Shown: one piece after another, positions 3,627 to 44,686 of the stretch | How the letters are laid out: every line of letters starts with the position of its first letter | How positions within the stretch are numbered: position 1 is the stretch's first letter | Assembly (NCBI RefSeq): GCF_028743515.2 | Contig: NZ_CP117969.2 | Location: 2,389,501-2,453,500, forward strand | Length of the DNA stretch: 64,000 nucleotides | DNA from: Imtechella halotolerans | Lineage (GTDB): Bacteria > Bacteroidota > Bacteroidia > Flavobacteriales > Flavobacteriaceae | Direction of reading: 5' to 3' | Made by a program: the position numbers and the translations under genes | Notes under the pieces: generated by a model | The model's database searches: none | Seen by the model: only the letters and a program-made list of their open reading frames with translations | Told to the model about the DNA's origin: nothing

Positions 3627-5414
3627 TTACAATTGTTTATCTATGAGTGAAATCACATCTACTGCTCGCTCATAATCATGCTCCATGGCGGTTTGTGAAG
3701 CTGGTGCATACCTAGCCTGCTCACAGCTTGCTAACAATGAGGTAAACTCATTCACATTGTCAACTTTTACACCCTTCTCTTGTAATAAAGCAATTATCTT
3801 TTCTTTACTAAACTCTGATGTTTCTATATGTAATCTAGCCTTTAAGTAATTATGTAGTGCACGTTCTAGTGCTTCATAAAACGTCTCCTTATGACCCAAT
3901 TTCTTTTTGGCAGCACCTAAGTATTTTTTTGCCAATTTACTAGCAGCCCTTATCTTATTTCCCTGCACGTCACTATCTATAGCCTGTTTTTTCTTCCATA
4001 CGAGCATGACAAATGGAATAAACAATATTGGTAACAACCACCACATATAAAATTCCATGGTTCCAAAAAAAGTATATGAAGAAACAGGTATTAATCCCGG
4101 CTTTAATTTTAAAAATCTAAATTGATTTTCGCCTCCTAAAACTGATTGCTTTACTCCTCCTGTAGTGGTTGAAGGAGTGGTGGTAATAGCTTCAGGTCCT
4201 TCATATACATTAAGTACAATCTCGTCTGACTGAACTGTATGGTATTTACGAGTTTGAGGGTTGAAATAAGAAAATGAAATTGAAGGAATAGGATATTTAC
4301 CTCTATTCTGCGGAACTACTGTATAGTTATCACTTACACGGCCTTGCATGCCTACCAAAGTAGTATTAATACTTTCCTTAAACTCAGGATCATATACTTC
4401 CAAAGATGTGGGCAACTGCAATTTAGGCAACTCAAAAAGTTTTAAGTTTCCATTACCACTGACCTCTACCTTAGCCTGAAGGGATTCAGAAGCCTTTAGA
4501 TCTGTCCGAGTAGTTGTAACTTTAAAATCAAAGTTTCCCACTGCTCCAGTAAAGTTTGATGGTTTGCCTTCTTGAGGTAATTCCTTTACTTGAATTGTCC
4601 TACTACCTGCCGAAACAACCTTTTCTACTTGAGTATAAATTCTTTGTCCAAAAAAATCAACTCTATTAGTTGGCACATCTACAAACACCCCTATAGATAA
4701 TGGCTCAATTGTAAGTTTTCCAGTTTTCTGAGGATACAAAACCATCCTTTTTAGCACTACATACCGATAAGGTTTTCCATTAAATGATCCATTTTCGGCC
4801 TGCAATCTTTGGACAGGGATATCCTGATTCCAAAAATTAACATAAGTAGGTTTATCAATATGTCTTATATCACTGATACTAATAGTAGGACTAATAAAGA
4901 GCTTATAAACTACACTTATTGCTTCATTTAAGTATGGAGAGGCATTGCTTACCTCTGCTACCAAGTGCAAACTTTCATCTGCGATATCATCAGCGGTTTT
5001 CTCATCCGATGGCTTGTCAACTGCAGCTGTAACTTCAATGGCAATAGGAGTGGTTTTATATATAGTTCCATCAATATCTATAGTTGCCTGCCGAATCACG
5101 AATTTTCCTTTGGCTGTAGGTTGTAAAAAATAGGAATAGGTTTTTGAGAAGGTTCTTTTTCCATTTACCCATTGCTGACTTACTGATTGATTAGGCCCCA
5201 TAACTACTCTAAAACCTTCGAATTTTGGAGGCAAGAAATTATCACCATCTTGATTCATTATAAAATCAATCCTCAAACGCTCATTCACTCCTAATTTATT
5301 TTTACTTACTTTGGCTTCAAAGAGTACATCACCCTGAGCCATTACAGTAAAAGATAACATTAGAAAAAACAATCGTATAACACTATGTAAAGGGGCTATT
5401 TTAAACATACACAA
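3627..5414 (-). CDS. batD: BatD, oxygen-tolerance family membrane protein
   Basis: A 595-residue protein with an N-terminal signal sequence (about 10-27) and a long extracytoplasmic part made of several beta-sandwich domains. The first reads FEAKVSKNKLGVNERLRIDFIMN, a typical BatD opening. A single membrane helix follows at about residues 448-470 (FYMWWLLPILFIPFVMLVW), then a cytoplasmic helical tail of about 125 residues. It is batD by sequence and by its place between batC and batE. It probably scaffolds the VWA proteins BatA and BatB in the envelope; this is inference from the family. Confidence 0.93.
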   Translation of the reverse strand: MCMFKIAPLHSVIRLFFLMLSFTVMAQGDVLFEAKVSKNKLGVNERLRIDFIMNQDGDNFLPPKFEGFRVVMGPNQSVSQQWVNGKRTFSKTYSYFLQPTAKGKFVIRQATIDIDGTIYKTTPIAIEVTAAVDKPSDEKTADDIADESLHLVAEVSNASPYLNEAISVVYKLFISPTISISDIRHIDKPTYVNFWNQDIPVQRLQAENGSFNGKPYRYVVLKRMVLYPQKTGKLTIEPLSIGVFVDVPTNRVDFFGQRIYTQVEKVVSAGSRTIQVKELPQEGKPSNFTGAVGNFDFKVTTTRTDLKASESLQAKVEVSGNGNLKLFELPKLQLPTSLEVYDPEFKESINTTLVGMQGRVSDNYTVVPQNRGKYPIPSISFSYFNPQTRKYHTVQSDEIVLNVYEGPEAITTTPSTTTGGVKQSVLGGENQFRFLKLKPGLIPVSSYTFFGTMEFYMWWLLPILFIPFVMLVWKKKQAIDSDVQGNKIRAASKLAKKYLGAAKKKLGHKETFYEALERALHNYLKARLHIETSEFSKEKIIALLQEKGVKVDNVNEFTSLLASCEQARYAPASQTAMEHDYERAVDVISLIDKQL

Positions 5415-35892: not shown

Positions 35893-37791
35893 ATGAGTGA
35901 CGCTATTAAGCACGAATGCGGAATTGCCTTAGTTAGGCTACTAAAACCTTTGGAATATTATAAGGATAAGTATGGAAGTGCATTCTATGGAATAAACAAA
36001 ATGTACCTAATGCTGGAAAAACAGCATAATAGAGGACAAGATGGAGCAGGTCTAGCCAGCATAAAACTAGACACCCTCCCTGGAGAACGCTATATCAGCC
36101 GTATTCGTTCTAACGAGCCACAACCTATCCAAGATATCTTTACCCAAATCAATTCGCGCTTAAACCAGATGGTTAACGAACTCCCAGAATTGAAAGATAA
36201 TGTTGCCTTACAAAAAAAACTACTTCCGTATATAGGTGAAGTATTTTTAGGCCATGTACGCTATGGTACATTTGGAAAAAACAGTATTGAAAACGTACAT
36301 CCATTCCTGCGTCAAAACAACTGGATGCACCGCAATCTAATAGTAGCTGGGAACTTCAACATGACCAATGTTAATGAATTATTCGATAATTTAATCCGAT
36401 TAGGTCAACATCCAAAAGAAAAGGCAGATACAATTACCGTAATGGAAAAAATAGGTCACTTTTTAGATGACGAAGTAAACAAACTATATAAAAAGCTAAA
36501 ACAGGAAGGCTTTAGTAAAAAGGAAGCCTCTCCTATTATTGCTGAACAATTGAATGTCGCCAAGATTCTAAAAAAGGCAGCAAAAAATTGGGATGGTGGT
36601 TATGCTATGGCAGGATTAATAGGTCACGGAGATGCTTTTGTCTTAAGAGACCCAGCAGGCATCCGCCCAGCATACTTCTACCAGGACGAGGAGGTGGTAG
36701 TGGTTGCCTCTGAACGTCCTGTTATTCAAACTGTCTTCAACGTAGAATACGAAGATGTTCATGAATTAGATCCAGGAAAAGCAATTATTATTAAGAAAAA
36801 TGGAGGTGTTACCTTTAAACGTATTTTAGATCCATTGGAACGAAAAGCTTGTTCTTTTGAACGAATTTACTTTTCAAGAGGTAGCGATAAAGAGATTTAT
36901 GAAGAACGAAAAATGCTAGGAAGATTACTATTTCCTAAAATTTTAGAAGTAGTTAATCACGATTTAGACAATACTGTTTTTTCATATATACCTAACACAG
37001 CTGAAACCTCATTTTTTGGACTTACTCAGGAGGTAGAAACCTATTTAAACCAGAAGAAAGAATTACAGATACTAAAAGAAGGGAACAACCTAACTCCTGA
37101 AAAGTTAAGAACCATCTTGGCAACTAGTCCACGAATGGAAAAAATTGCTATAAAAGACGTTAAATTACGCACTTTTATTACAGAGGATAGTAGCCGTGAT
37201 GACTTAGTAGCCCATGTCTACGATATTACATATGGTTCAGTAAAACAAAATGACAATCTTGTTATTATTGACGATAGTATTGTGCGCGGTACAACCTTAA
37301 AAAAGAGTATTTTAAGAATTCTTGATAGACTACATCCAAAAAATATCATTGTTGTTTCTTCAGCACCACAAATACGTTATCCTGACTGTTACGGAATTGA
37401 TATGGCCCGTCTTGAAGACCTAATCGCATTTAGAGCGGCTTTAGAACTACACAAAGACCGAGGAACCTACCATATAGTAGAAGATGTATATAAAAAATGT
37501 ATTGCACAAGTTAATTTAATAGATAGTGAGGTTGTAAATGTGGTGAAGGATATCTACAATCCATTCACTGACGATGAAATTTCAGAAAAAATAAGCACAT
37601 TATTAGCCCCGCAAGAAATTCAAGCTGGAGTAACAATCATATTCCAAACTGTTGATAACTTACACAAAGCTTGTCCAAAGAATTTAGGTGATTGGTACTT
37701 CACTGGGAATTATCCTACAGACGGAGGTAACCGTGTGGTAAACAGAGCTTTCATCAACTTTTATGAAGGAAATAATGAGCGCGCCTATTAA
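35893..37791 (+). CDS. purF: amidophosphoribosyltransferase-like protein (long PurF form)
   Basis: 632 residues from the ATG at 35893; the longer frame from 35839 is not family-like. The N-terminal class II glutaminase has its nucleophile at Cys9 (KHECGIALV), and NRGQDGAGLASI and GHVRYGTFGKNSIENVHPF are present. The usual AHNGNLTN is replaced by AGNFNMTN. The C-terminal phosphoribosyltransferase domain keeps the PRPP loop VIIDDSIVRGTT. The protein is about 130 residues longer than classical PurF. Relatives of this length occur in flavobacteria. It may be a PurF paralogue with changed ammonia chemistry rather than the standard enzyme. It is apart from other pur genes except purN 2 kb away. Confidence 0.85.
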   Translation: MSDAIKHECGIALVRLLKPLEYYKDKYGSAFYGINKMYLMLEKQHNRGQDGAGLASIKLDTLPGERYISRIRSNEPQPIQDIFTQINSRLNQMVNELPELKDNVALQKKLLPYIGEVFLGHVRYGTFGKNSIENVHPFLRQNNWMHRNLIVAGNFNMTNVNELFDNLIRLGQHPKEKADTITVMEKIGHFLDDEVNKLYKKLKQEGFSKKEASPIIAEQLNVAKILKKAAKNWDGGYAMAGLIGHGDAFVLRDPAGIRPAYFYQDEEVVVVASERPVIQTVFNVEYEDVHELDPGKAIIIKKNGGVTFKRILDPLERKACSFERIYFSRGSDKEIYEERKMLGRLLFPKILEVVNHDLDNTVFSYIPNTAETSFFGLTQEVETYLNQKKELQILKEGNNLTPEKLRTILATSPRMEKIAIKDVKLRTFITEDSSRDDLVAHVYDITYGSVKQNDNLVIIDDSIVRGTTLKKSILRILDRLHPKNIIVVSSAPQIRYPDCYGIDMARLEDLIAFRAALELHKDRGTYHIVEDVYKKCIAQVNLIDSEVVNVVKDIYNPFTDDEISEKISTLLAPQEIQAGVTIIFQTVDNLHKACPKNLGDWYFTGNYPTDGGNRVVNRAFINFYEGNNERAY

Positions 37792-37843
37792 ACGTTAACA
37801 ATGAGTATTTCATCGAAAAAATAACATTTTTTTATTATTTCTT

Positions 37844-37873
37844 TTGCCAGATTGTTAATAATTATTACTTTAG
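37844..37873 (+). promoter_or_regulatory. promoter of the candidate small RNA
   Basis: TTG (37844-37846), exactly 19 nt, then TACTTTAG, one mismatch from TAnnTTTG. It is followed about 50 nt later by a perfect terminator, with no ORF between. Confidence 0.45.
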
Positions 37874-37879
37874 CAGAGC

Positions 37880-37949
37880 CATAGCATAAGTAGGTTAAGT
37901 TCATGGTAAGATTTGGGGCAAAAAAAGGTGGACTAGTCCACCTTTTTTT
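37880..37949 (+). ncRNA. candidate small RNA
   Basis: The interval from the predicted start (about 37880) to a perfect terminator (37920-37949) would give an RNA of roughly 70 nt. The body before the terminator can pair CCAT with ATGG. No open frame of note lies in it. It could instead be the 3' UTR and terminator of the PurF-like gene. No known RNA family is recognised. Confidence 0.4.
37920..37949. terminator. perfect palindromic terminator downstream of purF
   Basis: A 30-nt perfect palindrome: seven A, then GGTGGACTAGTCCACC, then seven T. Works on either strand. On the plus strand it ends the PurF-like gene or the candidate small RNA. Confidence 0.93.
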
Positions 37950-37985: not shown

Positions 37986-38012
37986 AAAAAATCCCGACGA
38001 TGCGGGATTTTT
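37986..38012 (-). terminator. terminator of superoxide dismutase
   Basis: AAAAATCCCG / CGGGATTTTT stem with a 6-nt loop, 24 nt after the sod stop codon on the minus strand. Confidence 0.88.
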
Positions 38013-38035: not shown

Positions 38036-38644
38036 TTAGCTATTTTGAGCGTATAATTCTGCCACCTTTTCCCAGTTAATAACATTATAGAAGGCACCTA
38101 TGTAATCAGGACGTCTATTCTGATAATTCAAATAATACGCATGTTCCCAAACATCTATGCCTAAAATTGGGTAACCACCACAACCTATACCAGGCATTAA
38201 AGGATTGTCTTGATTTGCAGTAGAGCATATTTCTACTTTTCCCCCTTTGTGTACACACAACCAGGCCCAGCCAGAACCAAACCGTGTTGCTGCAGCCTTA
38301 CTGAAGGCTTCTTTAAATGCATCAAACGATCCTAGAGCAGAGTTAATTGCATCTGCAAGAGCTCCTTTAGGTTCTCCTCCACCATTTGGAGACATTATTT
38401 CCCAAAACAAGTTGTGATTATAAAATCCACCACCGTTATTTCGAACCGCCACATTATTCATATCTAATCCTCTCAGGATTTCTTCTATTGATTTTCCTTC
38501 CAACTCAGTACCCGAAATAGCCGAATTCAAGTTAGCAGTATAGGCGTTATGGTGTTTTGTATGGTGGATTTCCATAGTACGTGCGTCAATATGAGGCTCT
38601 AAAGCATCATACGCATAGGGTAATTTTGGTAATTCAAATGCCAT
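38036..38644 (-). CDS. superoxide dismutase (Fe/Mn)
   Basis: Converts superoxide to peroxide and oxygen. 202 residues with the four metal ligands His27 ([12 protein letters not shown]), His77 (FYNHNLFW), Asp164 and His168 ([15 protein letters not shown]). The metal cannot be set from sequence with certainty. There is no signal peptide, so it is cytoplasmic. It is divergent from addA and ends at its own terminator. Confidence 0.97.
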
Positions 38645-44636: not shown

Positions 44637-44656
44637 TTTCTTTATAATCTCAATTA

Positions 44657-44686
44657 AAACGCCCCGAATATTCGGGGCGTTTTTTA
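44657..44686. terminator. terminator of ompA
   Basis: AAAACGCCCCGAATATTCGG... is a perfect palindrome followed by six T. It lies between ompA and addB and could stop most ompA transcription before addB. Confidence 0.95.

Follow-up and report, generated by a model that had tools for sequence, protein, structure and literature searches.

A small RNA gene between purF and sod, conserved and often multicopy in Flavobacteriaceae, with complementarity to start codons of exported-protein genes in relatives

The window, a stretch of 64,000 nucleotides of Imtechella halotolerans DNA, contains two convergent open reading frames (ORFs) that we take, following an earlier sequence-only reading, to be purF and sod. 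Between them lies a compact unit with the features of a small RNA (sRNA) gene:

35893-37791, plus strand: purF, the upstream neighbor of the sRNA gene; ORF counted from its first ATG.
37843-37873, plus strand: promoter-like pair, TTTG (37843-37846) and TACTTTAG (37866-37873), with 19 nt between them.
37879-37949, plus strand: predicted sRNA gene of about 71 nt, delimited by the 62-row alignment and covariance model, with its 5′ end placed from the promoter box and its 3′ end from the T run.
37879-37906, plus strand: predicted 5′ hairpin, CCAT (37879-37882) with ATGG (37903-37906), from the RNAalifold consensus.
37885-37896, plus strand: pairing region P1, CATAAGTAGGTT, complementary to AACCTACTTATG, which in relatives spans start codons.
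37910-37918, plus strand: pairing region P2, GATTTGGGG, complementary to CCCCAAATC, which in relatives lies upstream of start codons.
37920-37949, plus strand: intrinsic terminator, a perfect 30-nt inverted repeat, AAAAAAAGGTGGACT/AGTCCACCTTTTTTT, whose stem varies compensatorily in relatives.
37987-38012, minus strand: second hairpin, AAAAATCCCG...CGGGATTTTT, by its position probably the terminator of sod.
38036-38644, minus strand: sod, the convergent neighbor, near the sRNA gene in most regions of relatives.

The sequence-only reading had proposed an orphan small RNA at this place. Both promoter boxes were found at the spacing it gave, the palindrome is indeed perfect over 30 nt, and the purF stop codon, which it put about 130 nt before the terminator, ends at 37791, 128 nt 5′ of the repeat. 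The body of the RNA extends from about 37879 to 37919 and opens with CCATAGCATAAGTAGGTTAAGTTCATGGTAAGATTTGGGG at 37879. The suggested pairing of CCAT with ATGG is possible, and its columns are invariant or nearly so in relatives; the GGTAAGATTTGGGG stretch described as open for pairing is single-stranded in the predicted fold, as are GATTTGGGG and the bases preceding it, and is highly conserved save for a one-base indel. The predicted fold of 37879-37949 (−19.2 kcal/mol; z = −2.65) was equaled by 2 of 200 shuffled sequences, and this stability is mostly that of the terminator, since the first 40 nt alone are as stable as their shuffles (z = −0.10). The window has nine occurrences of the pattern TTTG-N18-21-TAnnTTnG where 8.1 are expected, which is the chance level. 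With the promoter match at chance and the 40-nt body no more stable than shuffles, the window sequence taken singly would leave the question undecided. Promoters of the TTTG/TAnnTTnG type are outside the scope of the sigma-70-type promoter scan, and the terminator-scan listing of the window does not include the sRNA palindrome. Elsewhere in the window, a strong 12-pair terminator-like hairpin (AAAACGCCCCGAATATTCGGGGCGTTTT, 44656-44683) lies directly before a 916-codon ORF.

When 60 genomes (that of the window and those of relatives) were searched by blastn, strong matches to the core appeared in many genomes of the same family, often several in a row about 200 to 250 nt apart. We took 31 regions from the genomes of 25 relatives, which yielded 67 copies of the sRNA; removing six duplicates and adding the window copy gave an alignment of 62 distinct sequences (a shorter variant, L023:1148-1194, was omitted), 31 columns of which are invariant. 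The near-unchanging core reads CCATAxCATAAGTAGGTTAAGTTyATGGTA(A)GATTTGGGG and recurs usually between purF and sod, the spacer in which the sequence-only reading had advised looking for conservation. It is the 40-nt body that is conserved, and the terminator varies: in the RNAalifold consensus, both sides of its stem change yet stay paired, with four compensatory pairs. The 5′ stem gives no covariation support because its pairs are nearly invariant. A TAnnTTnG box sits at −13 to −6 with its fixed letters present in 79 to 100% of the 67 copies from 25 genomes, and TACTTTAG of the window occupies the same place, in agreement with a predicted start near 37880. This conservation of core and box raises the promoter match above chance, and the comparative data support a compact small-RNA unit having a promoter box and a terminator of its own, from which we infer that the gene is transcribed. 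The word "orphan" has to go: the copy is single in its own genome but belongs to a family-wide and often multicopy sRNA. We give next to no weight to a micropeptide encoded from the ATG at 37903, which is invariant in the alignment, as this reading is ruled out across the 62 rows by a one-nucleotide indel just downstream (GGTAAGATT/GGTAGATT) that shifts the frame between lineages, as the frame then enters the freely varying terminator, and as the ATG sits in the predicted stem.

Tandem copies, in arrays of up to six, each have their own promoter box and terminator hairpin. These arrays bear on the reading that the locus is merely the 3′ untranslated region and terminator of purF, with any RNA arising from read-through or processing and the conservation reflecting a terminator and a gene order. 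The sRNA does follow purF on the same strand, both here and in 25 of the 31 regions, and the promoter match taken alone is at chance. However, such a reading leaves unexplained why the body is conserved while the terminator varies, why every copy of an array repeats box and hairpin, and why six of the 31 regions have copies without an adjacent purF (sod adjoins in two of these and neither gene in four). Read-through from purF, which the sequence-only reading had named as the outcome that would speak against an sRNA, is therefore not needed, and we regard this origin as highly improbable.

Several copies depart from the common form. The sod-proximal copies of five genera (L034:5971-6044, L042:4858-4931, L048:4401-4474, L054:4188-4261, and L060:4084-4157) form a subtype, GGGACGAAAAGGG, with a well-conserved upstream sequence of its own, TTATTTCCC(A/G)CAATACCAGTA(A/T)TTTAG, which suggests that the subtype is regulated separately. 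Two extra copies in one genome (L063:4463-4536 and L064:4087-4160, 8.6 kb apart on G005:C13) lie away from both purF and sod and have a divergent, GGG-less end with terminators present. The omitted variant (L023:1148-1194, in G027) carries extra bases in the 5′ hairpin (CCATAAGGCGTAAGTAGGTTAGGTCTATGG) and lies 5′ of a normal copy. Upstream of many copies there is a further element: TT[CTA][AG][TC]C[TG][AG]A occurs between −65 and −30 in 28 of the 67 copies, compared with 0.6 in shuffles; on inspection by eye, it is absent from the window copy.

A covariance model search, as the sequence-only reading had recommended, was run on 149 Flavobacteriaceae genomes representing one genus each and found the family in 120 (in 106 of the 124 of good quality), with one to seven matches per carrier genome at an E value of 0.05. 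In a 296-genome sample of the phylum, 26 genomes of the same family matched and four listed from that family did not; outside Flavobacteriaceae, the sample gave only two matches (E = 0.004 to 0.007), about the chance expectation. The genome of the window has one copy (87.2 bits), and the next candidate (25.6 bits) was rejected as a second copy because it reads as another terminator. A 24-nt exact pattern was present in at least 118 stretches of named genomes. The genera recognized among the matches listed are Flavobacteriaceae (Zobellia, Maribacter, Winogradskyella, Flavobacterium, and others), with some entries labeled merely Bacteroidetes, Bacteroidota, or Bacteroidia. Among the 118 matches listed (pieces of up to 8 kb), both purF and sod were near in 80, purF only in 21, sod only in 13, and neither in 4. 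A viral origin of the sRNA was set aside, as no viral contig contained one exact 21-nt core pattern (exact matches only). The sRNA family is thus typical of Flavobacteriaceae and present in most of the sampled genera.

A first guess at the pairing seed, TTCATGGTAAGATTT against start codons, gave 10 rows in the genome of the window, including the complement of the sRNA itself, against 12 for the control and was dropped; P1 took its place. Three opposite-strand partial matches are complements of the sRNA core, two of them downstream of a CoA-transferase subunit gene, presumably scoB. A wider pattern scan covered 40 genomes, and 18 regions among its rows were picked by eye: two are start-codon sites (L249 and L256), two are scoB sites (L247 and L248), one is a sponge-like unit (L254), two lie in early codons (L261 and L262), and the other 11 are coding, unexplained, or chance matches. 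Among the picked regions, ACCTACTTATG occurred with its ATG as the start codon of two lipoprotein genes.

We then used a strict target pattern, CAAATN{0,13}ACCTACTTATG, in which the spacer excludes the sRNA's own complement. In the 149 genomes it returned 31 rows, corresponding to 29 sites, compared with 6 for the reversed control. Strict sites occur in 27 genomes, all of them among the 120 sRNA carriers, of which they are only a part; none of the 29 noncarrier genomes, several of them small or incomplete, has one. The ATG of the site starts an ORF of at least 100 amino acids (aa) at 17 of the 29 sites (L296 also offers a possible in-frame start 41 codons upstream). The others start a shorter ORF of 17 to 79 aa (six sites) or a doubtful 20-codon frame (one), or fall within a scoB-type small gene (two, of which L311 was assigned by its sequence only) or inside a longer ORF (three). 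For comparison, 5 of the 207 TTATG sequences in the window start one of the 51 ORFs of at least 150 aa used for this comparison. The site counts are not independent, because many of the sites are orthologous and the carriers are close relatives.

By eye, the 17 target ORFs represent about nine unrelated genes, and all of their products begin with a signal or lipoprotein sequence and are, by the same judgment, exported proteins or lipoproteins. Pfam was run on seven proteins, six of them start-site targets. Seven of the 17 targets look like one lipoprotein, whose scanned member is a CAP-domain protein; two further targets carry a Por_Secre_tail sorting domain, Ig/cadherin-like domains are present in one of the two Zobellia/Pseudozobellia target proteins, and two of the scanned targets had no Pfam match. 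The variant of the sRNA and that of the site go together: among genomes whose sRNA variant is known, and which as relatives are not independent, GGTAGATT occurs with AAATCTA 16 to 0 and GGTAAGATT with AATCTTA 2 to 0.

Applied to the genome of the window, a relaxed pattern for targets gave 18 rows (the sRNA's own complement included) versus 16 for the control, i.e., no enrichment, and no target reaches significance. An ORF of 486 codons starting MTIAHSYIVAF (L321) has a bipartite site at its start codon; being one hit, it cannot be significant alone. The best start regions within the window (51 tested) reach −28.9 kcal/mol, stronger than that of the genome's own small-protein gene described below (−25.8 kcal/mol). 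Either the regulon is small in this genome, or our patterns miss it.

The sites downstream of scoB belong to a small-protein gene. Its positions are as follows:

L211:2041-2160: small-protein gene.
L265, L266, L268, L270-L276, L280, and L288: small-protein gene downstream of scoB.
G000:C1, just after 2612113: small-protein gene in the window's genome, with a degenerate site.

We found scoB in 24 of 31 genomes searched, 14 of which carry the sRNA. At 13 of these 14 carrier loci there is a short ORF, usually ending in LTKK(V/L/I)FML or similar; the carrier G007 has no small gene at scoB, and G034 supplies a fourteenth case. Twelve of the scoB ORFs and that of G034 were aligned (29 to 46 aa); the ORF of G005 is short because the conserved end is in another frame. 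The leader and first codons of the gene hold one to several sRNA sites, and the peptide motif NLPxxPT is itself the translation of an sRNA site. Compared with 100 shuffles each, the start regions were matched by at most one shuffle in 12 of the 14 cases, the exceptions being Zobellia (G001; 3 of 100) and the window's own genome (13 of 100), and the predicted duplexes with the sRNA reach −33 to −53 kcal/mol in 12 of the 14. At the ten scoB loci of noncarriers (two judged by covariance model and the others by blastn), a motif scan found no LTKK ORF. This silence is weak evidence, as the scan missed several true members, which were recovered through an ORF listing run on carriers only. Eight of the 13 aligned peptides were given to Pfam and NCBIfam and had no match; the sRNA family brings with it an uncataloged small protein. 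The upstream element TT[CTA][AG][TC]C[TG][AG]A is also found in 8 of 14 small-gene leaders, versus 0.6 in shuffles; many sRNA copies and small-gene promoters thus have a common TTnATCkA element, and they may be coregulated.

Such strong sites raise the question of whether the sRNA serves as the RNA component in a type I toxin-antitoxin-like pair, chiefly silencing the LTKK small-protein mRNA, with other sites secondary. That mRNA does have the strongest and most numerous sites, and the gene accompanies the sRNA at nearly every carrier scoB locus that was read. Against this, the sRNA is unlinked to the small gene and multicopy, most members of the small protein have no hydrophobic span (by eye), one carrier has no small gene at scoB, and start-codon sites are found in no fewer than nine other genes. 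We therefore consider a toxin-antitoxin-like pair improbable and prefer a regulator of several mRNAs.

Downstream of a gene that we take to be hflX (88% identical over 153 aa between G032 and G018) there are sponge-like units in two genera:

L213:2010-2160 and 2320-2460: two tandem units in G032.
L338, minus strand (about plus-strand positions 3930-4080): one unit in G018.

In all three, TTTACATTGTAATTAAGTGATAGTGTTGACCCC is followed by some three sites of partial complementarity and by a terminator. They are not covered by any ORF of 80 aa (L213) or 100 aa (L338), and from their sequence we regard them as putative noncoding sponges, or decoys, for the sRNA.

We favor, with a probability of roughly 0.8, the reading that the unit is an independent gene of about 71 nt for a trans-acting base-pairing sRNA that blocks the start codons of envelope-protein mRNAs, and that the window holds one copy of a family found across Flavobacteriaceae. 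What is expected of a trans-acting sRNA is seen here at the level of sequence, in the form of an independent unit with its own promoter and terminator and, in relatives, of conserved complementarity to the translation starts of unlinked mRNAs. Bacteroidota reportedly do without Shine-Dalgarno sequences (PMC6847099). The 5′ hairpin would present P1, P2 would remain single-stranded, and the terminator would end the RNA. P1 would pair over the start codon of exported-protein and lipoprotein mRNAs and P2 just upstream of it; with no Shine-Dalgarno sequence involved, such pairing would obstruct the ribosome at initiation and thereby repress translation. Multisite decoy transcripts would probably titrate the sRNA, and I. 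halotolerans may use its copy in the same way. More tentatively, at somewhat less than even odds, these parts may form a family-wide circuit in which a multicopy two-seed sRNA shuts the start codons of exported proteins and the decoys are the small-protein mRNA, through its NLPxxPT sites, and the hflX-linked noncoding three-site sponge.

Targets are known for only a few Bacteroidota sRNAs, most of those cited here coming from gut Bacteroides. The present family adds specific sites that overlie start codons in bacteria devoid of Shine-Dalgarno sequences, together with candidate RNA sponges. With it, one can test how translation is repressed by sRNAs in such bacteria and by what means flavobacteria keep their exported proteome in check. 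We found no earlier description of this sRNA in the open-access literature. At the gathering threshold, Rfam recognized only a tRNA in the window and nothing in seven related loci, and no Rfam 15 family reaches its cutoff for the sRNA. Relaxed matches, all below the cutoff of their family, were rejected; the top ones by E value include sraA and BASRCI337 and are mostly terminator based.

The closest known counterparts are the FopS sRNAs of Bacteroides thetaiotaomicron (RF04319), described, together with GibS, as short paralogues with their own Bacteroidota promoters and a terminator (PMC11697453). FopS reportedly binds next to the start codons of outer membrane transporter mRNAs and blocks their translation, and it is bound by the RRM protein RbpB, which counteracts it (PMC11697453). 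Both RNAs are short, with a Bacteroidota promoter and, after TTCATGGTA..AGATTT, a terminator; both are complementary to translation starts of envelope genes. FopS is multicopy, and the flavobacterial sRNA has one to seven matches per genome in relatives and one in the window's genome. FopS copies are reportedly scattered rather than arranged in tandem arrays. These likenesses could mean that the flavobacterial sRNA truly belongs, as a distant member, to the FopS/GibS lineage and shares its ancestor. However, the FopS model scores only 21.7, 22.2, and 21.2 bits here, short of the 56-bit membership cutoff, and although 15 letters of the FopS R1 seed are in common, with a 2-base gap, 157 or, for the other variant, 996 of 20,000 shuffles align equally well. 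In samples of the phylum, no carriers between the two clades turned up with either model; the FopS model matched none of 61 phylum-sample genomes and 1 of 14 control genomes, a Bacteroides. Unlike FopS, whose R1 seed lies in a single-stranded 5′ end, the flavobacterial sRNA carries its FopS-like seed behind, and in part within, a 5′ hairpin, has a second pairing region (P1) before the common stretch, and sits at purF-sod in Flavobacteriaceae. Its strict sites match lipoproteins and secreted proteins, with no SusC-like start recognized, in contrast to the transporter targets of FopS. We consider common descent rather unlikely, the case for homology being suggestive only; by analogy, the sRNA appears to act like FopS and is perhaps a distant relative, and we do not file it as a member.

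Within the flavobacteria, a survey of Flavobacterium psychrophilum reported 85 new RNAs named within Rfp1-89, among them Rfp18, which has at least three stem-loops, pairs through the third, and upon deletion changes the mRNA of secreted metalloproteases (PMC9723704). Rfp18 resembles our sRNA in being a small flavobacterial RNA and differs from it in structure, as the window sRNA has two hairpins. One of Rfp1-89 may be the same RNA. In the enterobacteria, the envelope-stress sRNAs MicA, RybB, and OmrA/B, and in Vibrio the Qrr RNAs, repress several envelope-protein mRNAs at the translation start, some of them as paralogous copies, and act with Hfq, often on Shine-Dalgarno regions. OmrA/B and Qrr are also named in the FopS report (PMC11697453). 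To these the flavobacterial sRNA appears comparable by mode alone, as a set of paralogous copies that would repress envelope mRNAs at their start.
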